Positions 31,705 to 52,749 of a stretch of 64,000 nucleotides of DNA are shown here, one piece after another. Position numbers and translations under genes: made by a program. The notes under the pieces were generated by a model. That model saw only the letters and a program-made list of their open reading frames with translations. It did no database searches and was not told the origin of the DNA. Source of the DNA: Trachythela sp. YZ-2020 (lineage: Eukaryota; Cnidaria; Anthozoa; Malacalcyonacea; Clavulariidae). Location of the stretch: the NCBI GenBank assembly GCA_016169945.1, contig JADLSH010000282.1:186001-250000 (forward strand), in the 5' to 3' direction. Every line of letters starts with the position of its first letter. Positions within the stretch are counted from its first letter, which is position 1.

Positions 31705-31710
31705 CACGTG
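31705..31710. repeat. Polinton target-site duplication, left copy
   Basis: CACGTG, repeated at 52744-52749. Six bp is the usual Polinton duplication length. The site is itself palindromic. Confidence 0.9.
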
Positions 31711-32005
31711 AGTAGTTATATACGGCACTATAGCTCACTTTTGAGCGAATATTGAATACGCCCACCCACGCAAGTTGAATAAATTAACCCCACCACGTGA
31801 CACTTCCACATGCACACCACATGCACACCACACACACAACTATTGCGCAACACCGGTCGCTTCGCTTCGCTTCGCGCGCAACAAAATATTGTTACAGATT
31901 TGTAAAATATTGTTACACAAGGTATTATAAAATATTGTTACGAAATATTTTACAAAAAAGGTTTTATAAGAATTAATAATTTAAGTGTGTGGGTGGGTGT
32001 AATAA
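31711..32005. repeat. Polinton left terminal inverted repeat
   Basis: Matches 52457-52743 in inverse orientation almost perfectly, with one 8-bp indel (GGGTGGGT). It ends right at the ATG of the first gene and contains a GC-rich (CGCTTCG)n core with CpG dinucleotides, plus several ATATTGTTAC words. It likely serves as replication origin (protein priming), integrase substrate and promoter. Confidence 0.92.
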
Positions 32006-32656
32006 ATGGAACACGAACAAAACTTAAGTTTTACAGTAAAGGATTTGGGGTATTTAACTATGAACGAACTTAAAGAAAAAGCTAAAAAACTTGGTATTGA
32101 TAAAAAATACACTTATCCGGTAAGGCATCGCAGGGTGATAATTAACGATATTATGGAGGCACAAAGTGCTAAACATGATAGTAGACCTATAAAAGATGTA
32201 AAAAGTAGTAAGGTCCAAGAAGCTCCTAAAACCACAGACAAGGTGTTTGAATTAAGACAGGGGGTGTTTGGTTTAAAACAGGAGGTGCTTGGTTTAAGAC
32301 AGGAGGTGTTTAATGTAAAAAACCTTATATTTTTGTTACAAAGAGATATAGTGGTATTTAGAAACACCCAAGTAGCAGAGGTACAAAAGTTAAAGGAACT
32401 AAAAACAAACCCAAAACAAAGGCTTTTTGAAAACAAATGGGAAAATGGACCTTCAAAAAGTTTAATGGCTATTAACACCAAAGTAGTAGAGGTACAAAAA
32501 ACAAACCCAAAACCAAAGGTTATTGAGAACAAATGGACAAATGGACCTCCAAAAAGTTTAATGACCAAAGTAGTAGAGGTACAAAAAACAAACCCAATTA
32601 ACAAACAAAGTTCTTTTGAAAACAAATGGAAAAATGGACCTCCTAAAAGAACCTAA
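32006..32656 (+). CDS. Polinton hypothetical protein with C-terminal repeats
   Basis: 216 residues, function unknown. The N-terminal LTMNELKEKAKKLGI resembles a SAP-like helix pair. Residues about 75-115 are leucine-rich and probably coiled coil (LRQEVFNVKNL). The C-terminal half has three imperfect repeats of an ENKW-NGPPKS element and KVVEVQKTNP spacers. It is the outermost left gene and starts where the terminal repeat ends, so it would be transcribed inward from the TIR promoter. Codon use is AT-rich like its neighbours. Confidence 0.8.
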   Translation: MEHEQNLSFTVKDLGYLTMNELKEKAKKLGIDKKYTYPVRHRRVIINDIMEAQSAKHDSRPIKDVKSSKVQEAPKTTDKVFELRQGVFGLKQEVLGLRQEVFNVKNLIFLLQRDIVVFRNTQVAEVQKLKELKTNPKQRLFENKWENGPSKSLMAINTKVVEVQKTNPKPKVIENKWTNGPPKSLMTKVVEVQKTNPINKQSSFENKWKNGPPKRT

Positions 32657-32702
32657 ACTAAATTGTTTTATACAAAAACCCATTTTAAAAATAAAATAAA
32701 AT

Positions 32703-32924
32703 ATGCCTTTAAAATATTATAGTTATTTAGTTGGTGAAAGTATTGAATGCACTGCTTGTGGATATACAGGCGCAAAAACAGGTATGAAATTACATTTAAA
32801 AATGAAACATAATAATGTAGAAAAAATTGATGATGATAGTGAACCTTATTGTACTGTTTGCAATAAAAAATTTAAAACAAAAGCTGGGTTATTAGAACAT
32901 ATAAAATCCAAAAACCATTGGTAA
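32703..32924 (+). CDS. Small protein with two C2H2 zinc fingers
   Basis: 73 residues. Finger 1 spans about residues 16-36 (CTACGYTGAKTGMKLHLKMKH); finger 2 about 50-71 (CTVCNKKFKTKAGLLEHIKS). Both show the Cys2-His2 spacing of classical DNA or RNA binding fingers. AATAAAAT directly precedes the start. It may act as a regulator of host or element transcription. Inference only. Confidence 0.8.
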   Translation: MPLKYYSYLVGESIECTACGYTGAKTGMKLHLKMKHNNVEKIDDDSEPYCTVCNKKFKTKAGLLEHIKSKNHW

Positions 32925-32933
32925 AGTAAGTAA

Positions 32934-32969
32934 CATTTCGTTATACCTCTTATAGGGTATAACAAAATG
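32934..32969. terminator. Stem-loop between Polinton genes
   Basis: A 14-bp stem with one mismatch (CATTTCGTTATACC with GGTATAACAAAATG) lies 10 bases after the zinc-finger gene stop and just before the next start. Probable RNA 3'-end structure. Confidence 0.45.
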
Positions 32970-32978
32970 AAATAAAAT

Positions 32979-33521
32979 ATGGACCCAACACAAGTTAAAA
33001 CATGTTTAAGTATTATAGATGATATGATTTTTACTAACAAAATTCTTAAGCTACCAAGTTTTGTTGTAAAAATTAAAAAAAGTACAGACATTACTTTTAG
33101 GTTTCGACGCCAACCATTAGAAAAACTACTGACCATGTTACAAGCTATTCGTACACACAAAAACCCTGTTGGTTTATTACATGGGTTAAAACTTTTATGG
33201 GTTAACTTATTACAAGAGTCTGTGGTTGTGGGTAAAACTTGGTATTGTGTTATATATTTACATAGTTTACAAAAACTTAATTTTCATTATTTTGAAAAAG
33301 GAGTTGTTACAAGTGAGGTAAATTGGTCCGACTTTAAATATAGATTTGGTGCACCATATACACAACGCGACGATGACGAGTTTGTAAGTTATTGGAGTAA
33401 AAAAATAGCGCACAAAGGGTTAACATTTAAAAAATGGAAACAAGAGTTAGAAGATTATAACGAAGAGAAAAATATGGATCTTTTAGATTTAGGTATGTTA
33501 CCTTATAAAAGTTGGGTATAA
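32979..33521 (+). CDS. Polinton hypothetical protein (180 aa)
   Basis: No family recognised. Basic N-terminal half with hydrophobic stretches (PVGLLHGLKLLWVNLLQ) and a C-terminal half rich in aromatic and acidic residues (FKKWKQELEDYNEEKNMDLL). No catalytic Cys-His pattern of the adenovirus-type protease could be found. Starts after a hairpin and AATAAAAT. Confidence 0.7.
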   Translation: MDPTQVKTCLSIIDDMIFTNKILKLPSFVVKIKKSTDITFRFRRQPLEKLLTMLQAIRTHKNPVGLLHGLKLLWVNLLQESVVVGKTWYCVIYLHSLQKLNFHYFEKGVVTSEVNWSDFKYRFGAPYTQRDDDEFVSYWSKKIAHKGLTFKKWKQELEDYNEEKNMDLLDLGMLPYKSWV

Positions 33522-33527
33522 TAAAGA

Positions 33528-33770
33528 ATGAGTTATACTGTAACCACTAAATGTGCATGTGAATGGTGTTTAAATAAGTTAGGGTGCGACTGTTTTCAGT
33601 GTGTCGCGACATATGAAAATGATCCCGAAGATTGTATGTGTGGTGGCACAGATGATTGCGAAGGCCTGTGTGAATGCACTTTGTGTATAGAATTATGTTG
33701 CGATGATGAGTCTGGTGACGGTATGGATAATTCTTATGTGACCGACTGTTTTGATGAGTCTAGCGACTAA
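33528..33770 (+). CDS. Cysteine-rich acidic small protein
   Basis: 80 residues with 17 cysteines, many as CxxC or CxC (CACEWC, CDCFQC, CECTLC), and an acidic C-terminus (CCDDESGDGMD). Probably binds zinc. The spacing does not match a named family that I recognise. A second cysteine-rich gene lies at 43725. Confidence 0.75.
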   Translation: MSYTVTTKCACEWCLNKLGCDCFQCVATYENDPEDCMCGGTDDCEGLCECTLCIELCCDDESGDGMDNSYVTDCFDESSD

Positions 33771-33787
33771 CTAAATCAATAAAAAAT

Positions 33788-33958
33788 ATGTCCAAGGAAA
33801 TAACAAGAAAAAAACCAATGTTTTCACAACCCAAAGGTAAAATAGTAATAGAAAATCTTAAATGCACTATTTGTAATGAAGTTTTTACAAATATGTTTAA
33901 ATTTAAAGACCACTGTGACACTAAACATCCATTTAAAAGAGACAATAATAATTTGTAA
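33788..33958 (+). CDS. Small single C2H2 zinc-finger protein (56 aa)
   Basis: ATG at 33788 and TAA at 33956-33958. One finger, CTICNEVFTNMFKFKDHCDT followed by KH, has C-x2-C-x12-H-x4-H spacing, with basic flanks. Supported by the finger, the AATAAA-like leader and its place in a tight gene row. A 10-bp stem-loop (AATTTGTAAC with GTTACAAATT, 33950-33976) overlaps its stop. Confidence 0.7.
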   Translation: MSKEITRKKPMFSQPKGKIVIENLKCTICNEVFTNMFKFKDHCDTKHPFKRDNNNL

Positions 33959-33992
33959 CTACAAAGGTTACAAATTCATTTAAATAAATAAT

Positions 33993-34511
33993 ATGGCATT
34001 AAGATTTGGATATTCGAATGACGAACCAAACTATATACACAACATAAAACCTTTTAGGGAGTTTCTAACAACTAGTGATTTCCGGTCTTCATATGATGGA
34101 TTGGTTAAAGATAGATGGCGCCATCCTCTTAACAGGAAGACAAGCGGTGCGGAAATGTACATCTGGTGTAACAATTTTTCAGAAAACTCGGGGATAGCTC
34201 TTAGGGCTCACATCTTGGACGGTGACTCTGATATTACAACTCCAATGAGAATATTATATTCTTTATACTGCACAATGTCAGATGGTACAAAAATAACGAG
34301 GGATCTAAAAGAAATAAATTTATCAACTAAACAGATTCCGGGTACAAACTTATTCATATTGGATGAATATTTTAGTATTCCAAAAATTGTCCCGGAGTAC
34401 AAAACCATGAAACTTATGGTTGTAAAATTTAAACAACTTTCTGACGAAACAGGTGGTAACGAGTCAACTCTTCATGTAACAACTTACACTACTGAGTCAA
34501 ACAATCTTTAA
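33993..34511 (+). CDS. Fibre-associated candidate sharing N-terminus with collagen-like gene
   Basis: 172 residues. The first residues MALRFGYSNDEPNY match [14 protein letters not shown] of the next protein, then the sequences diverge. The remainder is rich in beta-prone segments (MRILYSLYCTMSDG, TLHVTTYTTE) and has no membrane helix. I infer an alternative or accessory spike whose shared N-terminal peptide docks on the same virion base. It lies 17 nt upstream of the collagen-like gene on the same strand. No homologue is recognised. Confidence 0.65.
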   Translation: MALRFGYSNDEPNYIHNIKPFREFLTTSDFRSSYDGLVKDRWRHPLNRKTSGAEMYIWCNNFSENSGIALRAHILDGDSDITTPMRILYSLYCTMSDGTKITRDLKEINLSTKQIPGTNLFILDEYFSIPKIVPEYKTMKLMVVKFKQLSDETGGNESTLHVTTYTTESNNL

Positions 34512-34528
34512 CCCTAAATAAATAAAGT

Positions 34529-36349
34529 ATGGCATTAGCATTTGGTTTTACAAAAGATAACCGTTATACATCAATAGGTGGTCAACAAGGTCCACAAGGA
34601 CCATCTGGTCCACAAGGGCCTGACGGAATACAAGGCGAACAGGGTAATCCGGGTCGACGAGGACTACAAGGTTTTAAAGGTCATTATGGACCAAAAGGAG
34701 CTAATGGTAACACAGGAATTCAAGGTTTACAAGGAGTAACCGGTCAAAAAGGTCTCACGGGAGATACTGGACCACAAGGACAACAAGGACTTATTGGAAA
34801 TACAGGACCACAAGGTGCAAAAGGATTAAAAGGAAACATTGGCGACACAGGAGCTAATGGTGACACAGGAACTCAAGGCTTACAAGGTGTCACTGGTCAA
34901 AAAGGTCTTACAGGTAACACTGGTACACAAGGCCAACAAGGACTTAAAGGAAATGTTGGTGCAACAGGACCACAAGGTCCTGCAGGATCTGGATCTGGCG
35001 GTGGTGCACAAGGACAAAAAGGAGACACTGGTGCGACTGGTCCGCAAGGTTTACAAGGTGTCACAGGACAAAAAGGTCTTACAGGAAATACTGGTACACA
35101 AGGCCAACAAGGACTTAAAGGAGAAACTGGTCCAAAAGGTTTAAAAGGACAAAAAGGAAATCAAGGATCATTAGGACATCAAGGAAATATTGGACCACAA
35201 GGTTTACAAGGAGTAACAGGTCAAAAAGGACTTACAGGTAACACAGGTCCCCAAGGACAACAAGGATTAAAAGGAAACACAGGTCCCCAAGGTCCACAAG
35301 GTCCTGCAGGATCTGGATCTGGTGGTGGCGGTGCACAAGGTCCAAGAGGACCAAAAGGTGATACTGGTCCACAAGGACAACACGGAATTACTGGGCCAAA
35401 AGGCTTAACTGGTAACACAGGACCTACAGGACCACAAGGTGCAAAAGGAAGTGATACCGGTATAAAAGGAAATACTGGTGCAAATGGACCAAAAGGTGAC
35501 AAAGGAGATACTGGACCAAGAGGACAACAAGGAAGCCAAGGTCCGCATGGTCTTACAGGCAACACCGGCTTACAGGGAGTTACTGGATTAGAAGGTCCGC
35601 GAGGTTATCAGGGTTTACATGGTATTAAAGGTGATACAGGAATACAAGGCCCGCCAGCTATTAGAGGAACTGATGGTTCAAAAGGTGACAAGGGTGATAA
35701 AGGCGACAAAGGTAACATTGGCCCAAGAGGGTACACAGGCATGGTTGGTTCCAAAGGTGATACTGGTAGCATAGGTGGTCAAGGTAATTCTGGAAATAGA
35801 GGTCAAAAAGGAAATACTGGCCCGCAAGGACCACAAGGACCCGCAGGTCCAACAGGACCCACAGGCCCACAAGGATCTGCGAGTGCTGTTGCTGTAAATT
35901 TTTTCCAAAATTTTGGGAAACTTTATCTTAAAGCTGCGAAAAATAACTCATTTTGTACAAGAAATAACAACAAAATTATTAGTGCGATAGTTCCAACACA
36001 AGGAGATTATATCGTTAAATTTAGATTTAGATTAAAACCATCAGCTTTTGAATCTGGTTCTCCAAATATTACCACCACAGCAGGCTGGTATTCGAAGGAT
36101 GATGCTGACTATGCAGACCTTGACACTTGTATATATGTAGAAAATGTTATCAAATCAGCTTTTAAAGTTGTGACAAATGGTGCTACATATCACACCATTG
36201 GACACGATATTTACATGGAAGGTCTTATCACCATGGCAAAAGGAGCGACAGTTGAGGTAAAATCTTATACAACTTTTTTCGGTGATGATTACAGTTATCT
36301 TACTTACGATGTGTATGATCCTATTATGGTTCTTACAAAAGTTGGATAG
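34529..36349 (+). CDS. Collagen-like fibre protein with globular C-terminal head
   Basis: 606 residues. Residues 1-20 form a short anchor ([14 protein letters not shown]). Residues about 20-450 are Gly-X-Y triplets ([19 protein letters not shown]), interrupted by two flexible GSGSGGG linkers. Residues about 451-606 form a non-repetitive beta-rich domain ([17 protein letters not shown] ... [11 protein letters not shown]). The layout of anchor, triple-helix stalk and head is that of viral and phage collagen-like fibres. There is no signal peptide, so assembly would be intracellular. Placed just before the packaging ATPase, within the virion gene block. Repeats at DNA level (ACAGGACCACAAGG-like) make it prone to length change. 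The head could be a trimerisation or attachment domain; that is inference. Confidence 0.85.
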
Positions 36350-36360
36350 GTGACAAATAA

Positions 36361-36975
36361 ATGAATACACCATTTAACATGCTTATTGTTGGCGCAACGG
36401 AATGTGGTAAAACATATTACCTATTAAACCTACTAACCAACGAGTATAACAAACATTTTCAATACATATTTCTAATCTGTCCAACATTTGAGTACAACAA
36501 AACATATCAAGATTGGAAACATAAAGACTCTCCCGGTTTTTACACAATACAATGTGATCAAGACGAAGTGGATACATTTTTAAAATACATCACCGATAAC
36601 TTTAAAGGTACTAACTCACTAATAATATTAGATGATTGTGCAAGTTCTAAATCTGTTAAAACTAGAACATCTGAGCTTGTAAACTTAGCTTTTTCTGCTA
36701 GGCATTACAACCTAAGTACAATAGTAATTACACAAAAGTTAACAGCAATAACACCATCTTATCGTGAGAACATAGCCAAGTTAGTAGTTTTTGATTCGCC
36801 AAGTGCTCTTGCATGGAAAACAATATCAGATGAGTTCTTAGACATTCCAAAACAAGAACAAGAAGCACTACGAAAAGCCCTTAAAGAAAACAAGTACGCC
36901 AGGTTAGAAATTAATCTTAGATATCCAAGATCACACAAAATAATATTTAAAAAAAACTTATTAAAAATATTTTAA
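36361..36975 (+). CDS. A32/FtsK-HerA-type DNA packaging ATPase
   Basis: 204 residues. Walker A GATECGKT at 11-18, Walker B SLIILDDCA with Asp91-Asp92, and a sensor TIVITQKL with Gln125. These match the packaging ATPase of Polintons, adintoviruses and nucleocytoplasmic large DNA viruses, which pumps the genome into a preformed capsid. Length is normal for Polintons. The start directly follows ACAAATAA. Confidence 0.92.
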   Translation: MNTPFNMLIVGATECGKTYYLLNLLTNEYNKHFQYIFLICPTFEYNKTYQDWKHKDSPGFYTIQCDQDEVDTFLKYITDNFKGTNSLIILDDCASSKSVKTRTSELVNLAFSARHYNLSTIVITQKLTAITPSYRENIAKLVVFDSPSALAWKTISDEFLDIPKQEQEALRKALKENKYARLEINLRYPRSHKIIFKKNLLKIF

Positions 36976-37001
36976 AACATACACAAAATTATGTTTTAAA
37001 A
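36970..37001. terminator. Stem-loop after the ATPase gene
   Basis: TTTTAAAACAT pairs with ATGTTTTAAAA (11 bp) across a 10-nt loop, overlapping the end of the ATPase gene (TTTTAA). Confidence 0.45.
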
Positions 37002-37016
37002 TAAATATTCTAATAA

Positions 37017-37520
37017 ATGGACAATACAGAAGAGACCGAAGCATTACGCAAAGAGTTAATGGATCTTGCAGACAAAGGTTTTATTGACCAAACTAAGACA
37101 TATTTAAGGGACAAAAGAAGGGTGACACATTCTGTACTAAAAAATATAAAGAGCGAGTACATTAAACATAGGGATGACAACAATCGTCAAAAGATGGCAG
37201 TTAAATTTGTAATACTTGCAGTGTCCCTTTCTGATAACTTTTGTGGGTCTTACTTTACAATTAAGGACAGTGGTAAGTTTACAGCAAAAATATTAGAGGA
37301 TGAAAACATAATGTTTGTTATTAGGGATCTAATGCCAAGTTTCGCACCAGATGATTATTATAGTAAATACTTTTTCGCACTTACAGGGTTAGGTGTATTA
37401 TGTTACAACCACATAAACATAACGGACCAAAAACAAAGTGAAGAAGCAATTCCCAGCGAAGAAGAAGCAATTCCTAGCGAACGAAGCAGCGAAGAGACCC
37501 AAGAACCACCACAAGAATAA
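37017..37520 (+). CDS. Polinton hypothetical protein (167 aa)
   Basis: No family recognised. Helical N-terminus (ETEALRKELMDLADKGFID), a central hydrophobic segment (AVKFVILAVSLS), a second one (YFFALTGLGVLCYNHI), and an acidic Pro/Glu/Ser-rich repeat tail (SEEAIPSE duplicated). Last gene of the first rightward block. Confidence 0.7.
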   Translation: MDNTEETEALRKELMDLADKGFIDQTKTYLRDKRRVTHSVLKNIKSEYIKHRDDNNRQKMAVKFVILAVSLSDNFCGSYFTIKDSGKFTAKILEDENIMFVIRDLMPSFAPDDYYSKYFFALTGLGVLCYNHINITDQKQSEEAIPSEEEAIPSERSSEETQEPPQE

Positions 37521-37535
37521 GATTAGGGCAATTAA

Positions 37536-37563
37536 TTTTTAAAGTAAAAAATTACTTTAAAAA
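37536..37563. terminator. Bidirectional terminator-like hairpin
   Basis: TTTTTAAAGTAA pairs with TTACTTTAAAAA (12 bp, loop 4) between two convergent stop codons, 15 bases from one and 12 from the other. Confidence 0.5.
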
Positions 37564-37574
37564 ATATAACTTCG

Positions 37575-37778
37575 CTAATTACTTTCAGAAGAATAATAAC
37601 TATCGTCGTCAGATGTTAGTGTATATTCACTTTCAGAAAGACTTATACTCATAATTTCATCCAATACCAAACTAGTTTCATTTTGTTTTTTTAATATTTT
37701 AATTTGTTCTTCAACTAAAACAAATTCTTTTTCTAATTTTTTAATTTTTTCATCTAATCTTTTAAAGGCCTGTTCCAT
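37575..37778 (-). CDS. Small coiled-coil protein
   Basis: 67 residues from the ATG at 37778, preferred over an ATG four codons upstream because AATAAA directly precedes it. Residues 4-38 form a heptad-like coiled coil (RLDEKIKKLEKEFVLVEEQI). The C-terminus is acidic and serine-rich. Unknown function. Confidence 0.65.
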   Translation of the reverse strand: MEQAFKRLDEKIKKLEKEFVLVEEQIKILKKQNETSLVLDEIMSISLSESEYTLTSDDDSYYSSESN

Positions 37779-37872
37779 TTTATTATGCAAAAAAATTTGT
37801 AAAATACCTATTAAGGCATCTTACAAATTTAAATTTTATATTTTTATTTTTTTGTAAGTAAGTTTAAACAGT

Positions 37873-38277
37873 CTAATCTTCTGCAATACCTTCTGGTATA
37901 TGATCACTTTCAAACCTAAGCATTTTTACTTTAAAGTTTAAATATTTTTCACCTGTGGAATGTTTTTCATACACAGAATTACATACAAACTTAACACTAA
38001 CATTTACTCTGCCAACATTTAAAAGTTCTGTTTTTTGGTTATTTGTTAGGCCAGGTACCGATAAGTATAATGTGTTACCTTTACTACCTTTCATAATTTT
38101 TTTAGTTTTGTGTTTGTCTGACAAATTTGTAAGTCTTTGTACCATCTTTTCGTCATTAATGACAATTGGAACATTATAACCACTATTTTTAAACTTAGAC
38201 TTTTCAACACCCCATGTTAAACAACTTGGGATTTCAAATACTTCAGGCGTTTCAAGTTTTACTGTACTTCCGTTCAT
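37873..38277 (-). CDS. Polinton hypothetical protein (134 aa)
   Basis: Soluble, mixed alpha/beta. Segments such as VFEIPSCLTWGVEKSKF and YLNFKVKMLRFESDHIPEG suggest a conserved Polinton protein, perhaps nucleic-acid binding, but I cannot name the family. A 10-bp stem-loop (37793-37802 with 37821-37830) lies behind its stop. Confidence 0.7.
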   Translation of the reverse strand: MNGSTVKLETPEVFEIPSCLTWGVEKSKFKNSGYNVPIVINDEKMVQRLTNLSDKHKTKKIMKGSKGNTLYLSVPGLTNNQKTELLNVGRVNVSVKFVCNSVYEKHSTGEKYLNFKVKMLRFESDHIPEGIAED

Positions 38278-38303
38278 TCTTACTTTATTGCTAGGTATAT
38301 TTT

Positions 38304-38486
38304 TTATTTCTTATAAGACCCCGCGTAGCGCCCCGCGTAGCGCCCCGCTAGCCCTCGTATACATCTAGGTTTAAATTTTACTTCTATAGTATCGCTATTT
38401 ATAATGTTTATATCAAAAACATCTATTGTTTTATCAGTAATAATATTGTAAAACTCTTGTGGATCTGTTAAAAATTTAGAGATCAT
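38304..38486 (-). CDS. Short hypothetical protein with GRYAG repeats
   Basis: 60 residues. The C-terminus AGRYAGRYAGSYKK is encoded by the CGCTACGC-type microrepeat at 38315-38350, which seems to have invaded the end of the gene. The start follows AATAAAAT. Low certainty that it is expressed. Confidence 0.5.
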   Translation of the reverse strand: MISKFLTDPQEFYNIITDKTIDVFDINIINSDTIEVKFKPRCIRGLAGRYAGRYAGSYKK

Positions 38487-38557
38487 ATTTTATTATACCA
38501 CAATATTTTTATTGTATTTTTTATAAGACCCCGCTAGCATCTATTTTTGTCGTGTCG

Positions 38558-39190
38558 CTACGCTCCACGGGTAGTTTTAATTTCATTATATGCAAAGTAA
38601 CCTAACGCTATCGCGAGAATCCACATGTTGTTACCTAACCACATTAACCCTTTTGCGCCCATACTTAAAACAGTTGAGATAATACTACCGAGGGCAGTAA
38701 ATACAGGTCCAAACTTAGCAAGTATTTTAGCAAGACCTTTCCCAAAAGTAGAGACACCGCGAGCACCGGCGGCAAGAGCTGATCTTGTTGCGCTTACAAT
38801 TCCTGTTATTAATCCTGCAACACCAACACTTATCGCAGCTGTGACACCTAAGTTCTTTTTAGCCCACCTTTTAAACTTTTCAAACTTTGTTAGTGGGTTG
38901 TTATCGGTCTCATTTTGTAAAATTTGTATAACATCATCGAGTACAGGTCTTATATTATTTTGTAATCTTATGTTATCTTGCTCTAACTCTGCAACCTTTG
39001 CAATAGACTCGTACAAAGTTTTTAGGGTGGGGTTTTGTTCTGCTACCGATCGTTCTCTCCAAGTTTTTACCTCGTCGCCTATGAACTTTATTTGTTCCTT
39101 GTAACTAATATTTTGTTTACGAATTCCAGATTGTAAAATTGCTTGTATTTCTCTATCCCACTCTGGTTTTCCCCCGTCCAAATTAACCAT
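38558..39190 (-). CDS. Polinton membrane/virion protein candidate (210 aa)
   Basis: N-terminal half soluble and helical (NISYKEQIKFIGDEVKTWRE, a probable coiled coil at 65-100). C-terminal half has glycine-rich amphipathic or membrane segments (AAISVGVAGLITGIV, TALGSIISTVLSMG, MWILAIALGYFAY). This resembles membrane-active internal virion proteins in layout, but no homologue is certain. No in-frame ATG exists upstream before the stop at about 39290. Confidence 0.7.
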   Translation of the reverse strand: MVNLDGGKPEWDREIQAILQSGIRKQNISYKEQIKFIGDEVKTWRERSVAEQNPTLKTLYESIAKVAELEQDNIRLQNNIRPVLDDVIQILQNETDNNPLTKFEKFKRWAKKNLGVTAAISVGVAGLITGIVSATRSALAAGARGVSTFGKGLAKILAKFGPVFTALGSIISTVLSMGAKGLMWLGNNMWILAIALGYFAYNEIKTTRGA

Positions 39191-39278
39191 TTCAATGTTT
39201 TCATGTTGTGATCTAACATCTTCATAACTATCGCTAATTCTACTATTTAATATGGTCCTAGAATTATTAATTACACTG

Positions 39279-39758
39279 TCATTTAGTTCGTCTTAATTTG
39301 TTCTTTCTTAGTTTTGTCAGTGATGCTTTTCTTCTACCTGAGAATGTTATTTCTTCATTCTTAACATTAATTTTAAACATAAGGCTCATTCTAAGACCTG
39401 CTTCTGAAAATGTTATTACATCATTCTTGTAAAAAATTTTCTTGTTGTTAAACATCAACATATGGACCCTTTTTTTCGCTGAAGGTCTATCAGGTTCTAT
39501 TAATTCTTTTTCTAATATGTTTTTTACTTTTAATTGGTGAAGGGTTTCTATCGCATGCTCTCTAAAAAATTCAGGATTACGAGTATCTATAAGAGGGACA
39601 CTTTCGTCAAGTTTAGAATTGGTAGGTATGTTTGTGGTTGTTTCTTGGTCGTCATCATCAAAATTAGTTTCTTGTTCAGCATCATCATCATCATCATCTG
39701 GTCCAAGATCTTCCACTTCAGGATTTTGGTTTTTCATTTCTAAATCTGGTTCTGACAT
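39279..39758 (-). CDS. Acidic/basic hypothetical protein (159 aa)
   Basis: N-terminus strongly acidic (DDDDDDAEQE, encoded by a TCATCA microrepeat). Middle helical (EFFREHAIETLHQLKV). C-terminus very basic (KASLTKLRKNKLRRTK). The charge layout suggests a DNA- or core-associated protein. Unknown family. AATAAACC precedes the start. Confidence 0.65.
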   Translation of the reverse strand: MSEPDLEMKNQNPEVEDLGPDDDDDDAEQETNFDDDDQETTTNIPTNSKLDESVPLIDTRNPEFFREHAIETLHQLKVKNILEKELIEPDRPSAKKRVHMLMFNNKKIFYKNDVITFSEAGLRMSLMFKINVKNEEITFSGRRKASLTKLRKNKLRRTK

Positions 39759-39825
39759 GGTTTATTTAAACACCTCTTCGTTTGTTACCACAGGTTCTTT
39801 AACTTCATTTACTTCTTTTACTTCG

Positions 39826-40851
39826 CTACGCTTCGTTCGCTACGCTCACTTCGCTTGCTTCGTTCGCTACGCTCACTTCGCTAAGCTCTCTTTCGTAAAA
39901 TCTACCGTGTATATTTTCCCTACTCTCAATGTCTTGTATATCATACATAACAGGATCACCTTGATGAACTTTTGTTATTTTAAATGTCTCCTCCGTAAAA
40001 TTAATTGTGTAACCTTTTACAAACCTAGTACCTGTGTGATATTTTTCAACCCTAACGGTATCGCCTACTTTAAATCTAGGTTTTTTTAGTGCGTTAGTTT
40101 TACCGTACAAAGTTTCCCAAACTACATACTTATTTTTTTCGTTCACATCTGCAGGTTTCATCTTAATACTTCTGTGTATACTGTGATTGTAATTAAATGT
40201 AACATCGCCTAAAATATGTAACCACTTTTTTGTGTTGTGTTCCGTAAAATATTTCCACATTGTTGTTTTTAAAGTCCTATTTAATCTTTCCACAAGAGCT
40301 GCTTTTCGGTTAAAAAAGGCCTTACCATCTTTTTTAATTAAAGTTGTAAAATGTTCTATTCCAAGTTTGGAAAGTAACCCATTGACATTTTTGTTTTTAA
40401 ACTCATTACCATCGTCGTATTGTACAACATCTGGGTACTTACCAAACCTGGTTTTAAATTCACCTAGTATTTTTTCCATTGCGTGGGATACATCGAGACC
40501 TGTTTTTGTTTTGGTTGGTTCTGTGAAAGCGTATCGGGATAATATTTCTATACTTGTTAGGATCCATTTGTACCCATCGTTATCACTAGCACGATCTTTT
40601 GTCATATCAACCATATCAAGTTGTAATTGGTTTCCAAGATCACTAACGATAGTTTTACGATACACATGTTTGCCAATTTTTTGTTTCGTTGTCGTGTAAG
40701 TTTTTTGTGTTAGTAACCAATTTTTAACTTGTTTACGAGTGACATCTAATCCCTCTTCTATTGCTTTTTGGTATAACCTTTCAATACTTTGGTAACCTGT
40801 CCCAGGAGAATGGTACAAATTTCTTAGACCTTGTTCTATTTTAAAACTCAT
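39826..40851 (-). CDS. Polinton retroviral-type (DDE) integrase
   Basis: 341 residues. N-terminal helix-turn-helix-like region with GYQSIERLYQKAIEEGLDVT and RKQVKNWL, typical of Polinton integrases in place of an HHCC finger. Catalytic core: Asp79 (LQLDMVDM), Asp146 (QYDDGNEF) and Glu188 (ALVERLNRTLK). C-terminal SH3/chromo-like domain at about 265-320 (FKVGDTVRVEKY). It inserts the linear genome with a 6-bp stagger, matching the CACGTG duplication. The tail SEVSVANEA is duplicated by the local CGCTACGCT microrepeat. Frame intact. Confidence 0.93.
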   Translation of the reverse strand: MSFKIEQGLRNLYHSPGTGYQSIERLYQKAIEEGLDVTRKQVKNWLLTQKTYTTTKQKIGKHVYRKTIVSDLGNQLQLDMVDMTKDRASDNDGYKWILTSIEILSRYAFTEPTKTKTGLDVSHAMEKILGEFKTRFGKYPDVVQYDDGNEFKNKNVNGLLSKLGIEHFTTLIKKDGKAFFNRKAALVERLNRTLKTTMWKYFTEHNTKKWLHILGDVTFNYNHSIHRSIKMKPADVNEKNKYVVWETLYGKTNALKKPRFKVGDTVRVEKYHTGTRFVKGYTINFTEETFKITKVHQGDPVMYDIQDIESRENIHGRFYERELSEVSVANEASEVSVANEA

Positions 40852-40872
40852 TTATTTTATTTTATTTTAAAG

Positions 40873-41514
40873 TTAAACTATTTCTAATTCTAACAAGGCA
40901 CTCATGTTTACATGGAAGTCGATGTTAGTTGTAAGTTTAAACGATAAGGAATTAAATCTTTGAATTATTGGGGTCTTTGATTTAATGTTGTCGTAAAATG
41001 AGGTGGTATCTAACAGCCCTTGTGTTGTTGTAACCGGTAACGATGCTATTACCTTACTTTGCTTACCGTCTGATCCAAAGTTTTGGAATGAGTCTACAAC
41101 GCTACATTCTATGTTTACAAATTTTAACCCATGATTAACATTGACATGGTTGTTGCTGTGGTGCCAAGTGTTTTTTACCAAGGCGGTGTCTTGTGGGAAG
41201 CCTAACATAGGGCCTATGTTGTTACCCAAGTTTAAAGCTTTTTCAGATTTTATTGAACATGTAGAATTTCGATGGTTTGCAATAAGTTTGATGTTTTCAT
41301 CTTTAAGTTTACTTTGGATATCGGTAAATGTCCAATACCCTTTGTCAAACACAAGGTTATCGGTACCATGTGTAATATTATAAGTTTTTGGAATATTATG
41401 AAACTCCCAAAATATAGTCGCCGACCTGAGGTACAGTTTAGATTTGTTAGTTTGAAATATATTCAAATTCACATTTTTAATGTTGTTTGGTACGAATACA
41501 GTTAACTTTGACAT
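40873..41514 (-). CDS. Penton-like minor capsid protein candidate
   Basis: 213 residues, beta-rich, no membrane segment. Pattern elements seen in Polinton/adintovirus small capsid (single jelly-roll) proteins are present: GYWTFTDIQSKLKDENIKLI, SEKALNLGNNIGPMLGFPQ, NTWHHSNNHVNVNHG and a C-terminal FKLTTNIDFHVNMSALLELE. It would form capsid vertices. It lies next to the integrase on the same strand. Assignment rests on pattern memory and length, not on a structure comparison. Confidence 0.65.
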   Translation of the reverse strand: MSKLTVFVPNNIKNVNLNIFQTNKSKLYLRSATIFWEFHNIPKTYNITHGTDNLVFDKGYWTFTDIQSKLKDENIKLIANHRNSTCSIKSEKALNLGNNIGPMLGFPQDTALVKNTWHHSNNHVNVNHGLKFVNIECSVVDSFQNFGSDGKQSKVIASLPVTTTQGLLDTTSFYDNIKSKTPIIQRFNSLSFKLTTNIDFHVNMSALLELEIV

Positions 41515-41539
41515 TTTATTTATTTATACATTAAATAAA

Positions 41540-42865
41540 ATGGAAGCATTCAAAGAAAAATATCCATATGCAGATGTTACTAAATTTTTATTTCAACCCG
41601 TAAAAACATTGTCGGGTGAGACTTTGTTTGTTAGAATAATGTATGTACATAACGGTAGGGCTTACGATATTAAGGCTTCAACTTTTTCTTTTGCTTGGGC
41701 CTTGGATTGGCAACCAAGAATTTGGAACACAAAGGGTGTTGTGCAAGGATTCACAAAAGGTCTCTTTGCAGGTAGTCCTAGTAATTTAAGTATTTTTGTA
41801 AATAACACACTAAGTTTTAACCCAAAACTTCCAAACCTTGTGGTGACCAAAAACATGTCAAAGTTTAACGACTATGCTGAGAACCCATATCTTGCTGCTT
41901 GTTTGGCTGCTTACATAACAACTTATCTTTGTGGTATTAGTACCAGACACTTCCAATCTAAGAATCCATTTGTAGGTAACTTAGCTAGGTTCCATTTGTA
42001 CTACCACATGAGAAGATTTCTTAGAAGTCCTAATAAGATGAGTAGATTTTTAAACCAAAGAATTAAAAATATAATTAATAATAATATACCTGTTGTGTAC
42101 GAGTGGACAAAAGAATTTCACCAAGGCCAAGAACAAATTGGTACTTGGCTAACAAAACAAGTACCACACAACAGCGTTAGAAATTATAAACCTGAGGTTG
42201 GTAAATTTGGTCAAACTGGTATTAGGTACGAGAGACGCGGTGACAGAACTATTAGAAGTTTAGATGACTACAAAATGTTTATTGCGACAGAGTCAACCGG
42301 TTTAACTCAAACTGGTCAGTTGTTATTCCAACAAAGTTTAGAAGCTTATGTGTACTGTGTACTCGGTGCGCAAGCTAGTACCAGATGGGCTATCGTTGGT
42401 AAAGGTGCGAAGTCTTTACAAACACAAGAGGTTTTCAAAAAACTTGTGGAAGATACAATTATACAAGATGACCAAACTGTAACTATTTCTAATATGAGAA
42501 ATGCCATAAAAAGTACTAATGTAATTTTAAACTTTGCAATTAGTCCTGGTGTAATTCTTATACCTAGCGATATGATAATTTTAAAACAAAAAATACCAGG
42601 TTACAACAACATTTTAATGGTAGTTGGTGGTGATATGGTGTTTGGTCACAATGCACATATTAACAAAGATTTAAACACAATAGAAGAAGAAGAAGAAGAA
42701 GAACCAGTTGTGCCACCAAATACACCTGTGGCAGTAGCGACAAAACCAGATTTAAATTTAGTTTATCCAAGAGAAATACCAAGTACAAGTAAAACAGAAA
42801 CGCAAACGTTATTAGCATTAACTGTGGTAACCGGTTATATTATAAAGTTTTTCTTATTATCTTAA
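41540..42865 (+). CDS. Polinton hypothetical protein with C-terminal membrane anchor (441 aa)
   Basis: The start at 41540 follows TTAAATAAA. It shares a short divergent leader with the penton-like gene. The large soluble domain has aromatic-rich segments (FAWALDWQPRIW, YENPYLAACL-like ENPYLAACLAAYITTYLCG, EFHQGQEQIGTWLTKQV). A Glu-rich linker (EEEEEEEP) and Pro-rich region precede a terminal hydrophobic helix (TLLALTVVTGYIIKFFLLS). A tail-anchored virion or assembly protein is possible. No family recognised. Confidence 0.75.
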   Translation: MEAFKEKYPYADVTKFLFQPVKTLSGETLFVRIMYVHNGRAYDIKASTFSFAWALDWQPRIWNTKGVVQGFTKGLFAGSPSNLSIFVNNTLSFNPKLPNLVVTKNMSKFNDYAENPYLAACLAAYITTYLCGISTRHFQSKNPFVGNLARFHLYYHMRRFLRSPNKMSRFLNQRIKNIINNNIPVVYEWTKEFHQGQEQIGTWLTKQVPHNSVRNYKPEVGKFGQTGIRYERRGDRTIRSLDDYKMFIATESTGLTQTGQLLFQQSLEAYVYCVLGAQASTRWAIVGKGAKSLQTQEVFKKLVEDTIIQDDQTVTISNMRNAIKSTNVILNFAISPGVILIPSDMIILKQKIPGYNNILMVVGGDMVFGHNAHINKDLNTIEEEEEEEPVVPPNTPVAVATKPDLNLVYPREIPSTSKTETQTLLALTVVTGYIIKFFLLS

Positions 42866-42872
42866 ATAAACA

Positions 42873-43166
42873 ATGTCAAACATAGAAAAAATTGAAGTAA
42901 CAGCGAAGCGGAGCGAAGCGACAAAATTATCAGACACAGAAAAAAGTGAACTAAGTAACAGCGAAGCAACAGCGAAGCGGAGCGAAGCGACAGAATTATT
43001 AAAATTATTAAAAAAATTAGAAGAATTAGACGAGTTAAACAAATTAAGAGAGTTAGAAGAATTAAGGGCAATAAACAAATTAAGTAGCCTAACAAAATTA
43101 TTAATAATATCATTAGGCGCAGGTATTATTTTGGGAATTTTATTCGATATGATAAATAAAGTATGA
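42873..43166 (+). CDS. Coiled-coil membrane protein with microrepeat insert (97 aa)
   Basis: Residues 10-41 carry two copies of AKRSEAT, encoded by GCGAAGCGGAGCGAAGCGAC microrepeats. Residues 42-72 are a Leu/Glu coiled coil (LLKLLKKLEELDELNKLREL). A hydrophobic helix follows at 74-93 (LTKLLIISLGAGIILGILF). It overlaps the next gene by four bases (ATGA), implying coupled expression. Confidence 0.7.
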   Translation: MSNIEKIEVTAKRSEATKLSDTEKSELSNSEATAKRSEATELLKLLKKLEELDELNKLRELEELRAINKLSSLTKLLIISLGAGIILGILFDMINKV

Positions 43167-43474
43167 GTGAGAACACAATAACTGACAGTACCAAAGAAAC
43201 AAGTGCCGAGAGAAAAGAGGCTTGTGAAAAACTAAGTGAGTTGTCTAAAAGTGCAAAGAAAAGAAGGTTACCAAAACCAAAACCAAAACCAGACGCTTGC
43301 GAGTCTTACGCTGATTTGCCTTATTTTTTGTTGTTTAAAATACTAGGTATTGTTTTAGGCATCGGTGCGTTATGGAATTATTGCACAGCTAAAGAATGTG
43401 ACAGCGTAAAAGACACACCAAAAGTAGCACCACCTGTAATGAAAAACCCACCGCTTGTAAATTTAGACGACTAA
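43163..43474 (+). CDS. Small single-pass membrane protein (103 aa)
   Basis: Charged N-terminus with a KRRLPKPKPKPK-like basic Pro stretch, one hydrophobic segment (YFLLFKILGIVLGIGALW) and a soluble C-terminus. Function unknown. Part of a row of four short genes with overlapping or nearly touching ends. Confidence 0.7.
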   Translation: MSENTITDSTKETSAERKEACEKLSELSKSAKKRRLPKPKPKPDACESYADLPYFLLFKILGIVLGIGALWNYCTAKECDSVKDTPKVAPPVMKNPPLVNLDD

Positions 43475-43479
43475 AATAA

Positions 43480-43725
43480 ATGGGTTGTAAACCTAGTAAA
43501 TTACAAATTCAACATAATGGTGATCTTTTTAACGAAGACACCGAAGTTCGTAAAAAATTTCTTACAGGTTTTCAAATGGCAAGGCGCGGTAAAGAAGGTA
43601 TAGAAGCTAACATACAGATTGCATTTGTTAAGTCTAGACTTAAGAAATATGAAAAAGTTACAAACATACCACCACAACCACAAATTGAAGAACCCCACGA
43701 ACCAAATAATAATATAGTAGAGTAA
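43480..43725 (+). CDS. Small protein with N-terminal myristoylation/palmitoylation signal
   Basis: 81 residues starting MGCKPSK. Gly2 and Ser6 fit the N-myristoylation signal, Cys3 is the usual adjacent palmitoylation site, and a Lys follows, as in Src-family N-termini. The rest is soluble and helical (VRKKFLTGFQMARRGKEG) with a Pro-rich tail. Dual acylation would tether it to host membranes, fitting the adjacent membrane-protein genes. The stop overlaps the next start (TAATG). Confidence 0.72.
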   Translation: MGCKPSKLQIQHNGDLFNEDTEVRKKFLTGFQMARRGKEGIEANIQIAFVKSRLKKYEKVTNIPPQPQIEEPHEPNNNIVE

Positions 43726-43982
43726 TGATTAACATAATAATTAATGTTTTTGGAAATGACAAATGTATATGTGGTGGCTGTATGTATATTTGTGACATGG
43801 TTAGTGTTATCGAACATATCCTAGATCAACATCCAAATGTAAATGGTGAAATTATGTATAAATGCATGGATTGTGACCTTAAAACTTTAAATGATAACGA
43901 GTTTGAAGACCATGTATGTGGCGAGGTGTGTTCCTGTGGAAGTGAAGAGGTATGTTCGGATTGTGAGTGCCCAAATTGTTAA
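43725..43982 (+). CDS. Cysteine-rich small protein with finger-like motif (85 aa)
   Basis: Fourteen cysteines. CICGGCMYIC and CMDCDLKTLNDNEFEDHVC suggest zinc fingers, and the C-terminus is a CxC/CxxC cluster (CSCGSEEVCSDCECPNC). Similar in style to the 80-residue protein at 33528 but not alignable by eye. It would bind metal; role unknown. Starts with a one-base overlap. Confidence 0.7.
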   Translation: MINIIINVFGNDKCICGGCMYICDMVSVIEHILDQHPNVNGEIMYKCMDCDLKTLNDNEFEDHVCGEVCSCGSEEVCSDCECPNC

Positions 43983-43997
43983 ATAAAAAAATATATT

Positions 43998-44027
43998 TTT
44001 TCTAATCCTGTAACAAGGATTAGAAAA
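43998..44027. terminator. Strong stem-loop at convergent gene ends
   Basis: TTTTCTAATCC pairs perfectly with GGATTAGAAAA (loop 8). It is between the rightward Cys-rich gene and the leftward capsid gene. The same stem recurs after PolB at 51522-51550. Confidence 0.6.
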
Positions 44028-44087
44028 CTTTTTGCGTTATTTTATTTTATTTTTTTTATTTTATTTTATTTTTTTTTTTTACTTAGC

Positions 44088-45305
44088 TTAAAACTCAATA
44101 CTTTGTAGTTGTTTACCCACAATGTTTATAACACCATCGGAGACTATGTACACATAACATGTCAAGTCCTTTGTGGTAACTCTTTTCTTAACTTCCAAGA
44201 GTACACCATCTTGTGTGTTGAGAATCTTTCGCCCTGTACCAGCTGCTGTTTTGTCACAAACAGTTCTCATGTCAACTACCAGTGCAAACTTGTTATTTGT
44301 GTAAAAGTTTTTTATGTTTAATGTATCTGTGGGATAGTCCAAGAAGAAGTTCTCAGCAGATTTAAAAAGTTGATGTTCTTCGAGACCTTGAGAATACAAC
44401 GAGTTTGGTACTCCTTCGATGGTCACTTTTACAGATTTTATGTTTGGAAACACAAAGTGTTCTGAGTCCTCAGTGTCATCGCGAAACAAAAGTACAATAC
44501 CTCTCATTGACTTTCTTGGTACATTAATGTTTAAATTCATTAATGTTGAACCTTTGGCCCATGTTTCCTTTTTCATCAGCATCACCTGTTCGTAAATTAG
44601 TGATCTTCCAACATTGTAAGAATTTAGTGCCTGTTGGTACATCACAGGAGATGTAATTGTTTCGTACTCAAAATGAAGATCTTCGATAGTGTAACCGGCA
44701 ACTGCTTCACCAGATTGAGCTTTCATAATTTCTGTTGCCGGTGGTAATGTAATCTTGTACCTTATGTTAGATTTCATACCGTACGAGGCATATAACCCTT
44801 GGTCTTTCAAGATTTTGCCAATTGGAATATGGACTTTGGTTTTGAAAAGCTCACCAAAATACTTATCAGCTGCTACACTTTTATCACCGGTGTCGTCCCC
44901 ACTCATTATTTTACGAGTGTTCTCGTTGGCAACTCCTTGTGAGATCATACACTCCCTTTTCTTTTCAGTTTCCCAAAGAGCCTTGTAAATCTCATAGTGG
45001 GACTCTCCTGTGTTGTCATATGCAACTTGTCCATCGATAGTTATTTCTAAACTTTTTTGTAAATTACTTGCGAGGTTGTTCAAAAACCAGGACTTGTCGT
45101 TCTTGCTTTTAAACGAACCTACAAGGTATAGGGATCCAGGAACCAAACAAACATTCTCGTATAGTTTTGGAATGTTAATGTAAAGTTCTTGGCTTTCCCC
45201 AATCTCTGTTGGTGTTAGCGTAAACACATTTTGTTTTTTAGGGCCGCGAACTTGCGAGTAAGTTATCTTCTCATAAGTTGGTAAAAGTTCATTAACTTTG
45301 TACAT
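44088..45305 (-). CDS. Major capsid protein candidate (double jelly-roll type)
   Basis: I choose the ATG at 45305 (MYKVNELLP), 405 residues, because AATAAATAA lies just upstream and the open extension beyond it is shared with the oppositely oriented gene. Segments typical of Polinton capsid proteins are visible: NTGESHYEIYKALW, VANENTRKIMSGDDTGDKS, IPIGKILKDQGLYASYGMKS, YKITLPPATEIMKAQSGEAV, LHFEYETITSPVM and NINVPRKSMRGIVLLF. It would form the hexameric capsid shell. A major virion gene in its own leftward block, beside two small membrane-associated genes. The assignment is by pattern memory; a structure prediction would settle it. Confidence 0.72.
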   Translation of the reverse strand: MYKVNELLPTYEKITYSQVRGPKKQNVFTLTPTEIGESQELYINIPKLYENVCLVPGSLYLVGSFKSKNDKSWFLNNLASNLQKSLEITIDGQVAYDNTGESHYEIYKALWETEKKRECMISQGVANENTRKIMSGDDTGDKSVAADKYFGELFKTKVHIPIGKILKDQGLYASYGMKSNIRYKITLPPATEIMKAQSGEAVAGYTIEDLHFEYETITSPVMYQQALNSYNVGRSLIYEQVMLMKKETWAKGSTLMNLNINVPRKSMRGIVLLFRDDTEDSEHFVFPNIKSVKVTIEGVPNSLYSQGLEEHQLFKSAENFFLDYPTDTLNIKNFYTNNKFALVVDMRTVCDKTAAGTGRKILNTQDGVLLEVKKRVTTKDLTCYVYIVSDGVINIVGKQLQSIEF

Positions 45306-45339
45306 AGTGTTATTTATTATATAGATTATATAATAAACA

Positions 45340-45573
45340 ATGGCTGGTGTATTTAAAGATTTACCAAAAGAGTTATACGACTCACTATTAATTGTGTTAG
45401 GGGCTGTTGCAGTCTCTTTCATAAGTAAAAAATTAATGAAGGACTCTCTTGGAGTTCCCGGTACAATGGAAGGTCTGTTGAAACTGGCAGCAGCGTTCGG
45501 TATCAGTACAAGTGTTATCAAGGTATTGGAGGCAAAGAAGATACTACCGACGAACCCATTCAAGGGTGATTAG
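45340..45573 (+). CDS. Small conserved Polinton membrane protein (77 aa)
   Basis: One hydrophobic segment near residues 12-30 (YDSLLIVLGAVAVSFI) and a second weaker one (LLKLAAAFGISTSVIKVL). The C-terminus ILPTNPFKGD is of a type often seen with capsid genes in Polintons. Transcribed divergently from the capsid gene with a 34-bp gap, so the two share a promoter region. Probably a minor virion or membrane component. Confidence 0.7.
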   Translation: MAGVFKDLPKELYDSLLIVLGAVAVSFISKKLMKDSLGVPGTMEGLLKLAAAFGISTSVIKVLEAKKILPTNPFKGD

Positions 45574-45584
45574 AATAATAAATT

Positions 45585-45998
45585 ATGGCAACAACAATTG
45601 CATTATCTGGATTATTTAATGCAATAGCATTTACAGGAACCGGTTACCTGTTTAGACTTTTAGATCACAAAGGATACCAAACTGAAATTAAAAGACACAA
45701 CATCGCGATGGAACAATTAACAGCCTCGAAGAACAAGTGGTATGAAAAACAAGCTGCTAACAAAGAAAAAATTACAGCAATGAGACGACAACTTTTAGAT
45801 GCAAATAGCGATATGAATTCAGTAAACAAGTCCTTGGAGGATCTACAAAAGATTACACATAACAACATGGTGTTTACGACAAGACCTCCTGTGTTAGAAG
45901 ATTTTTATAAACCATCCAAGGAAATGGAGGAGTACAAACATGTAACAGTTGGTGTTGTGGGTTTAGGTATTGGTTGGTTGTTAGCTGTTGTATTGTAA
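45585..45998 (+). CDS. Conserved Polinton protein with central coiled coil and two hydrophobic ends (137 aa)
   Basis: N-terminal hydrophobic stretch (LSGLFNAIAFTGTGYLF), a central basic coiled coil (EIKRHNIAMEQLTASKNKWYE) and a C-terminal hydrophobic helix (VTVGVVGLGIGWLLAVVL). I recall similar small proteins beside capsid genes in other cnidarian Polintons. Eleven bases after the preceding gene; likely co-expressed. Function unknown. Confidence 0.7.
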   Translation: MATTIALSGLFNAIAFTGTGYLFRLLDHKGYQTEIKRHNIAMEQLTASKNKWYEKQAANKEKITAMRRQLLDANSDMNSVNKSLEDLQKITHNNMVFTTRPPVLEDFYKPSKEMEEYKHVTVGVVGLGIGWLLAVVL

Positions 45999-46008
45999 AT
46001 GTAAAATG

Positions 46009-46034
46009 TTTTATTTCCTTTGTGGGAAATAAAA
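46009..46034. terminator. Stem-loop after the coiled-coil membrane gene
   Basis: TTTTATTTCC pairs with GGAAATAAAA across a short loop, 10 bases past the stop and before the convergent BRO-like gene. Confidence 0.5.
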
Positions 46035-46051
46035 TATAAAGGTTTTACTTT

Positions 46052-46432
46052 TTAAAAGTTCTTAAAAATCTTATTTTTTTTACCCAAAACTATATGTAAA
46101 TTTAAAATTTTTAATTCTAATGTTTTACATATTTTAAAAGAATTTATTACCTCAAAATTCAAACACTCGGTTCTCAACCTTTTTGCTAAATTTGGATTTG
46201 GACAGTCATCTATAAGATCCCAAAAACCTAATGCATTAATAAGAATAGTATTTTTGGAAGTGGGGTGATCACACTTGTCCTTATCGTCAATATCTTTAAA
46301 GCTGGATGCATATGGTTTATATCCAAGACTTTCAGCTGCCGATGACCCACAAAATAAAAACTCATCATTTGGTAGCGTTAACATTCTGAAAGTAACATTT
46401 AATTCCTTATTATGTACTGTTATACAATCCAT
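46052..46432 (-). CDS. BRO-N-like protein, short and diverged
   Basis: 126 residues. FCGSSAAESLGYKPYASSF, IDDKDKC and ILINALGFWDLI align with the order of blocks in the BRO-N domain (LGKDVATALGY, DDDKI, LINESGLYTLI) of the neighbouring protein, but the C-terminal VLPAIRKTG block is not conserved. BRO-N proteins bind DNA and often act as regulators in baculoviruses, phages and other large DNA viruses. Probably a diverged paralogue of the adjacent gene. Confidence 0.65.
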   Translation of the reverse strand: MDCITVHNKELNVTFRMLTLPNDEFLFCGSSAAESLGYKPYASSFKDIDDKDKCDHPTSKNTILINALGFWDLIDDCPNPNLAKRLRTECLNFEVINSFKICKTLELKILNLHIVLGKKNKIFKNF

Positions 46433-46470
46433 TTGTTTTTTATAGTGTGTGTTTCTTTACGAAAAATAAA

Positions 46471-47169
46471 TTACATACCTAAATATACACCTTTGTATAT
46501 CTCTCTATTTTTTTCTTTTTGATCATCTAACTCTAATCTTAATTTTTTAGTTTCTAATTCTAATTTTAAAACTTCTAATTTTAAATCTTCTAGATCTAAT
46601 TCCATCTTATAATACTTTACCCAAAAAGCTGTTCCACCAAGTTTACCTCTTTCAACAGCTTTTTCATCTTTTACAAGTTCAGATTTTTCAACCAACACAA
46701 CTCTTGTTTCTTTTTTTTCTTTTTTACATTGTAAATTAATAAGTTCTGAGTTTGGTGCCGCTGTTTCTATTTTTTCAACAAGTGACTCAATAGTATAAGT
46801 ACCTGTTTTTCTAATAGCCGGTAACACCTCACCTGTTACCCATTTTTTAAACTGTATTGCTTTTGGTAATTTGGATCCAAATATAAGTGTATAAAGTCCA
46901 GACTCATTAATTAAAACACTATTTGGTTGATGATGATGGGGGCGTAAAACGCGCCCCCCTTTGCGGGGGGTCATTTGTTCATTCCATTTAAAAACTGAAC
47001 GCCAAAAAATTTTATCATCATCGTTAACATGTGTTTGAATAGCCCATTTTGTATTTTTATAACCTAAGGCTGTTGCAACATCCTTACCCAAAAATAAAAT
47101 CATGTTGTCTTTTACAAAAACCTCGATGTCTAAGTTTAATTTTTCATTTCGAAACTGTTCAATACTCAT
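46471..47169 (-). CDS. BRO-N domain DNA-binding protein
   Basis: 232 residues. The BRO-N domain covers about residues 15-126: MILFLGKDVATALGY, VNDDDKI, LINESGLYTLIFGSKLPKAI and WVTGEVLPAIRKTGTY. The C-terminal part is a long coiled coil (LEDLKLEVLKLELETKKLRL) after a linker. BRO/KilA-type proteins regulate transcription or replication in large DNA viruses. It faces PolB across a 650-bp region packed with iterated motifs that it could bind. An inverted GCGCCCCCC/GGGGGG-type hairpin (about 46950-46970) lies inside the gene. Confidence 0.88.
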   Translation of the reverse strand: MSIEQFRNEKLNLDIEVFVKDNMILFLGKDVATALGYKNTKWAIQTHVNDDDKIFWRSVFKWNEQMTPRKGGRVLRPHHHQPNSVLINESGLYTLIFGSKLPKAIQFKKWVTGEVLPAIRKTGTYTIESLVEKIETAAPNSELINLQCKKEKKETRVVLVEKSELVKDEKAVERGKLGGTAFWVKYYKMELDLEDLKLEVLKLELETKKLRLELDDQKEKNREIYKGVYLGM

Positions 47170-51504: not shown

Positions 51505-51521
51505 TATTAAATTAGTTTTAA

Positions 51522-51550
51522 TTTTCTAATCCTTGTTTGGGATTAGAAAA
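51522..51550. terminator. Strong stem-loop after PolB
   Basis: TTTTCTAATCC pairs with GGATTAGAAAA, the same 11-bp stem as at 43998-44027. It lies 18 bases beyond the PolB stop and 13 bases before the convergent stop at 51563. Confidence 0.6.
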
Positions 51551-51562
51551 ATTATATAGTGC

Positions 51563-52021: not shown

Positions 52022-52120
52022 TTATTAAATTAATTATATAACTTTTCATTTCGTTAAACAATTTAAAAGTATAACGAAATGTTTGGTTTGGAATGTAAGT
52101 AATTCTTTATAATGTATGTG

Positions 52121-52743: not shown

Positions 52744-52749
52744 CACGTG
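52744..52749. repeat. Polinton target-site duplication, right copy
   Basis: CACGTG, identical to 31705-31710. Confidence 0.9.

Follow-up and report, generated by a model that had tools for sequence, protein, structure and literature searches.

The window analysed here is a 64,000-nucleotide stretch of DNA from the anthozoan Trachythela sp. YZ-2020 (contig JADLSH010000282.1, positions 186,001 to 250,000 of the forward strand), and all coordinates below are those of the window. It contains an intact-looking Polinton/Maverick element of 21,033 bp (31711..52743), which lies inside the frame of a long interspersed nuclear element (LINE) and is delimited by a target duplication, characteristic ends and inverted repeats. 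Two adjacent plus-strand genes of this element, each an intact open reading frame (ORF), encode proteins that begin with a common peptide and continue into different bodies. The first gene (33993-34511) encodes P172, a protein of 172 amino acids and a candidate short spike; the second (34529-36349) encodes P606, a protein of 606 amino acids. The two genes are separated by 17 bp, and 11 bp lie between P606 and a gene of the same cluster for a packaging ATPase (Pox_A32; 36361..36975, plus strand; Pfam E = 4.3e-17).

P606 consists of a 17-residue tail with the shared start peptide (residues 1-10; 34529..34558), a Gly-X-Y stalk of 434 residues (residues 18-451; 34580..35881) and a beta-rich C-terminal head of 155 residues (residues 452-606; 35882..36349, stop codon included), all on the plus strand. 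This bears out the anchor, stalk and head given for the protein in a preliminary description of this DNA. The stalk comprises 142 triplets in runs of 46, 35, 15, 22 and 24, which account for 426 of its 434 residues and are interrupted by four short breaks, two of them within GSGSGGG stretches. With this long repeat the protein is collagen-like, and Pfam recognises Collagen in six stretches (E = 5.4e-63). An internal repeat of 324 bp is present in 1.9 copies (34721-35328), and the stalk has therefore grown at least partly by duplication. Proline occupies the X position in 34 of the 142 triplets and the Y position in two. Animal fibrillar collagens contain far more Y-position proline; P606 is in this respect like the viral collagen ORFs from the loci fetched in our searches (see below), 63 out of 71 of which have a Y-proline fraction of <=0.10.

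The head of P606 has no Pfam match at E<=10. Its single-sequence structure model is weak, and 36 of the 50 Foldseek matches listed for it are TNF/C1q jelly-rolls, none of them significant; on this model, the head leans towards a TNF/C1q-type jelly-roll. The same fold is used by cellular collagen-stalked trimers, and the knob of tectiviral P5 is TNF-like. A collagen stalk is also found in BclA of the Bacillus exosporium. Sequence searches of Pfam and PDB found nothing that matches the adenovirus fibre, searches against PHROGs returned weak matches only (the best, 0.011, for the P606 head), and by eye no secretion signal is apparent.

P172 starts with MALRFGYSND (residues 1-10; 33993..34022, plus strand), followed by a low-confidence stretch to about residue 41 and a beta-sandwich body (strands 43 to 168). 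In its model, the predicted local distance difference test score (pLDDT) is below 50 at residues 1-6 and 8-41, which may reflect a loose tail and linker or simply the poor quality of the model. Foldseek found ten PDB matches at E<=0.001 with this weak, single-sequence model, eight of which are carbohydrate-binding modules, and the modelled body leans towards a beta-sandwich of that kind.

The first ten residues of P172 and P606 are identical at six positions (five of nine without the initial Met), with Y/F and S/T pairs in addition. The peptide had been called near-identical in the two genes, which is slightly too strong a word, although the likeness does exceed chance. Indeed, residues 2-12 of the two proteins score 27 with BLOSUM62, more than any other of the 300 pairwise combinations of 25 element genes (second-best score, 18); this score was met by 1.2e-5 of one million random pairs matched to the composition of the element N-termini, i.e., ~0.004 after multiplication by 300. 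When the first 25 residues are aligned locally, the match stops at residue 10, and the bodies beyond it are different, as had been claimed: the score of the P172 body against the P606 head was reached in 159 of 300 shuffles. Comparisons with the candidate penton protein (P172 body 41/300, P606 head 26/300) and with the candidate major capsid protein (207/300 and 220/300, respectively) were likewise at shuffle level. A loose motif search in the six frames of the window retrieved one additional minus-strand hit (47857), whose frame stops after nine residues. The gene starts are also alike at the DNA level (ATGGCATTA, then ATTTGG), and AAATAAATA stands immediately upstream of both genes. Judged by eye, several genes of the element have an AT-rich AAATAAATA-like leader that abuts the start codon (33983-33992, 34519-34528 and 41515-41530, among others); these leaders may be promoter or polyadenylation signals.

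On balance, and with modest confidence, we think it probable that the particle of this Polinton uses P606 and P172 as alternative receptor-binding proteins, both of which plug into the capsid via the common N-terminal peptide. This peptide would insert into the capsid most likely at the penton vertex, and the proposed docking site is the candidate penton (minor capsid) protein of the preliminary description (40873..41514, minus strand). A collagen stalk requires a trimer, and P606 would trimerise through its stalk; a trimeric jelly-roll is a common partner at the end of such stalks. As the collagen helix rises by roughly 0.29 nm per residue, the stalk would measure ~120 nm if fully helical, displaying the putative TNF/C1q-type head at its tip. 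The stalkless P172 would hold its predicted carbohydrate-binding-module-like beta-sandwich near the capsid surface and could act as an alternative or companion spike for receptor binding that joins the common tail to a different body. A more specific proposal, which we consider less likely than not, is a modular two-spike system with one interchangeable N-terminal plug and unrelated bodies, namely a collagen fibre of ~120 nm that ends in a trimeric head of TNF/C1q type, and a sugar-binding head that has no stalk. If true, the docking scheme of adenoviruses and the collagen-and-knob spike of tectiviruses would be combined in one integrating animal element.

Several observations weigh against two docked receptor-binding proteins. 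The structure models of both the P606 head and P172 are weak, and the structural matches of P172 also include the birnavirus VP2 capsid protein. In the P606 stalk, 63 of 149 glycine codons are GGA, compared with 23 of 189 when nine other genes of the element are taken together; the excess could reflect repeat expansion or foreign origin. The candidate penton protein has no Pfam and no PDB match, and its tentative assignment follows a family pattern only, by which it would resemble Polinton pentons. Furthermore, five listed ORFs separate its gene from the candidate capsid gene. The penton gene of Polintons typically adjoins the capsid gene or sits one gene away (PMC4028283; here and below, statements on published work refer to excerpts of the papers cited). 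Finally, no other element with the P172/P606 pair was found.

The searches behind this last point were of several kinds. Among 5.8 billion proteins, in a search that depends on shared 5-residue words, none of eight candidates for P172 and none of 163 for the P606 head were confirmed as relatives (E<=0.001). Single-protein scans of viral_contigs, which reach close relatives only, confirmed no relative of P172, the capsid protein, the ATPase, the type B DNA polymerase (PolB) or the integrase. An alignment of the capsid protein found no relative in viral_contigs and genome_contigs, neither of which was built from animal genomes. With P606, the best 80 of 226 confirmed loci in viral_contigs apparently match via Gly-X-Y, and the 24 other element proteins have no match at E<=1e-3 within these best 80. 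None of the 71 distinct collagen ORFs from the fetched loci (L001-L081; first Met per frame) begins with MALxFG. The sole locus retrieved with a DNA pattern of peptide plus Gly-X-Y (L081) has a MALxFG-like start and no collagen stalk; its peptide lies inside a longer frame of phage-like sequence and was judged to be a chance occurrence.

P606 may be the only spike, with P172 serving as a capsid cement, collar or adaptor at the same site or under the fibre, without receptor binding. The absence of a stalk in P172 and its match to birnavirus VP2 would fit such a role, and vertex partner proteins are known, an example being the P2 protein that PR772 carries there attached to P5 (PMC6750898). However, the preponderance of carbohydrate-binding modules among the structural matches suits a binding head, albeit at low model confidence, and we regard a purely structural P172 as a serious but rather unlikely alternative. 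Less likely still, the common peptide could have another origin or function than docking, either as a remnant left by duplication of a 5' gene end or as an expression or maturation signal. The DNA-level likeness of the two gene starts and of the sequence upstream of them speaks for this, but AT-rich AATAAA-like leaders also precede element genes that lack the peptide (by eye), and the type of residue is kept at the differing positions 7 (Y/F) and 8 (S/T); on this evidence, a duplicated gene end or such a signal appears improbable. That P606 is a captured host gene with a non-attachment role, e.g., in immune modulation, is very improbable: animal proteins commonly combine collagen with a C1q/TNF head, the head model leans towards this type, and the GGA excess points the same way, but the near absence of Y-position proline, the lack of a Pfam match for the head and the start peptide common to P606 and its neighbour gene argue against capture, while the GC content at third codon positions says little (head 0.219, within the element range of 0.217-0.365; stalk 0.145, below it).

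The proposed pair of receptor-binding proteins on a common plug can be compared with known systems. Among the listed search results and the excerpts of open-licence papers, no collagen fibre was found for animal Polintons, Mavericks or adintoviruses, and the word "collagen" is absent from PMC11071296, PMC11071308, PMC10120064, PMC4028283, PMC8097293 and PMC4642659. However, it had been claimed that such a system is not a described Polinton module, and this goes too far: collagen-like fibres have been published for protist polinton-like viruses, two of them with an N-terminal domain of the avian-adenovirus type, and a role in attachment was proposed (PMC12220804). Like P606, these are fibres with collagen repeats in a Polinton-type virus. 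The published fibres, however, have either an endosialidase chaperone at the C-terminus (n = 23) or phage tail repeats (n = 20) as fusion partners (PMC12220804), whereas P606 has no such Pfam match, carries a 17-residue tail and is accompanied by a separate stalkless partner with the same tail. Collagen-like proteins are also present in virophages (PMC3671162) and in a dinoflagellate element (PMC12721341).

In tectiviruses (PR772/PRD1), P5 has the parts seen or proposed in P606, namely a capsid anchor, a collagen-like stalk and a trimeric C-terminal knob, and P2 is present as another vertex protein. Three chains of P5 form part of the penton base of PR772 and then a collagen-like stalk and knob (PMC6750898). 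P5 has a whole penton-like anchor domain and a short collagen motif (residues 124-140; PMC6750898), in contrast to the peptide and 434 collagen residues of P606. Such an N-terminal base domain was not found in P606, where only 17 residues precede the stalk. The short N-terminal peptide, shaft and C-terminal knob of P606 recall the adenovirus fibre, whose N-terminal peptide sits in a cleft between penton monomers (PMC3386624); fibres of the avian type are able to bind one penton base in pairs (PMC12220804). However, the adenovirus shaft is a triple beta-spiral, while that of P606 is made of Gly-X-Y and P172 lacks a shaft altogether. A jelly-roll head of the sort suggested by the P606 model is known for BclA, with ExsF/BxpB, in the Bacillus exosporium, and the title of PDB entry 9h3d mentions an N-terminal peptide that serves as anchor (PDB titles). 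Because collagen-like fibres are known in protist polinton-like viruses and a collagen-like stalk in tectiviral P5, P606 and P172 represent a new variant and not a new kind of probable attachment system. What is new here is the pair with its putative common plug, together with a peptide tail that bears a collagen shaft of 434 residues; collagen fibres as such were already known. This layout, a tectivirus-type collagen stalk with an adenovirus-type short tail, bears on the question of how tectiviral and adenoviral spikes relate to each other.

The Polinton setting of the pair, also part of the preliminary description, was upheld. A 6-bp target duplication, CACGTG, lies on either side of the element (31705-31710 and 52744-52749), and the 281-bp terminal inverted repeats start with AGTAGT on the left (31711..31991, plus strand) and finish with ACTACT on the right (52463..52743, minus strand), i.e., they have the (AGT)2//(ACT)2 ends. 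Their outermost 207 bases are identical, with one mismatch further in (the latter by reading). Vertebrate Mavericks are defined by the same ends and 6-bp duplication (PMC8097293). Apart from the A32-type packaging ATPase, Pfam recognised PolB (1226 amino acids; 47824..51504, plus strand; E = 1.5e-47) and an RVE integrase (39826..40851, minus strand; E = 9.5e-10). The LINE split by the Polinton (30503-31765 and 52739-54130, minus strand) has an RVT_1 match and a weak Exo_endo_phos match; when its flanks are joined, a single open frame of 871 residues runs through the junction. The near-identity of the inverted repeats and the otherwise unbroken LINE frame suggest that the insertion is recent. 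Open genes for putative attachment proteins in a recently inserted element argue for particles that leave the cell and infect. According to a 2021 paper on vertebrate Mavericks, such particles had not been observed (PMC8097293), and P606 and P172 are concrete proteins to look for in Polinton particles.

Polintons carry capsid genes, typically for a double jelly-roll major capsid protein and a penton. In this element, the candidate major capsid protein (405 amino acids; 44088..45305, minus strand) has 90 relatives with 37-55% identity; the 13 of them that are named by organism all come from Paramuricea clavata, an octocoral, which makes a cnidarian host likely. It has a weak virion-structural PHROG match (E 0.017), and sequence searches gave no significant Pfam match and no PDB match. 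An adenovirus-type protease is a usual core gene of Polintons; no Pfam match to it was found in 24 of the 25 listed element ORFs (an ORF of 56 amino acids was left out), and a divergent protease is possible. Divergently oriented to the candidate penton gene is a gene for 441 amino acids (41540-42865, plus strand) with a C-terminal end that is hydrophobic by eye and no Pfam match at E<=0.1. Two adjoining minus-strand genes encode Bro-N domains (46052-46432, E 1.6e-6; 46471-47169, E 8.2e-25). In the right flank of the element there is a protein kinase ORF (60823-61662, minus strand; Pkinase E 2.9e-44), which presumably belongs to the host.
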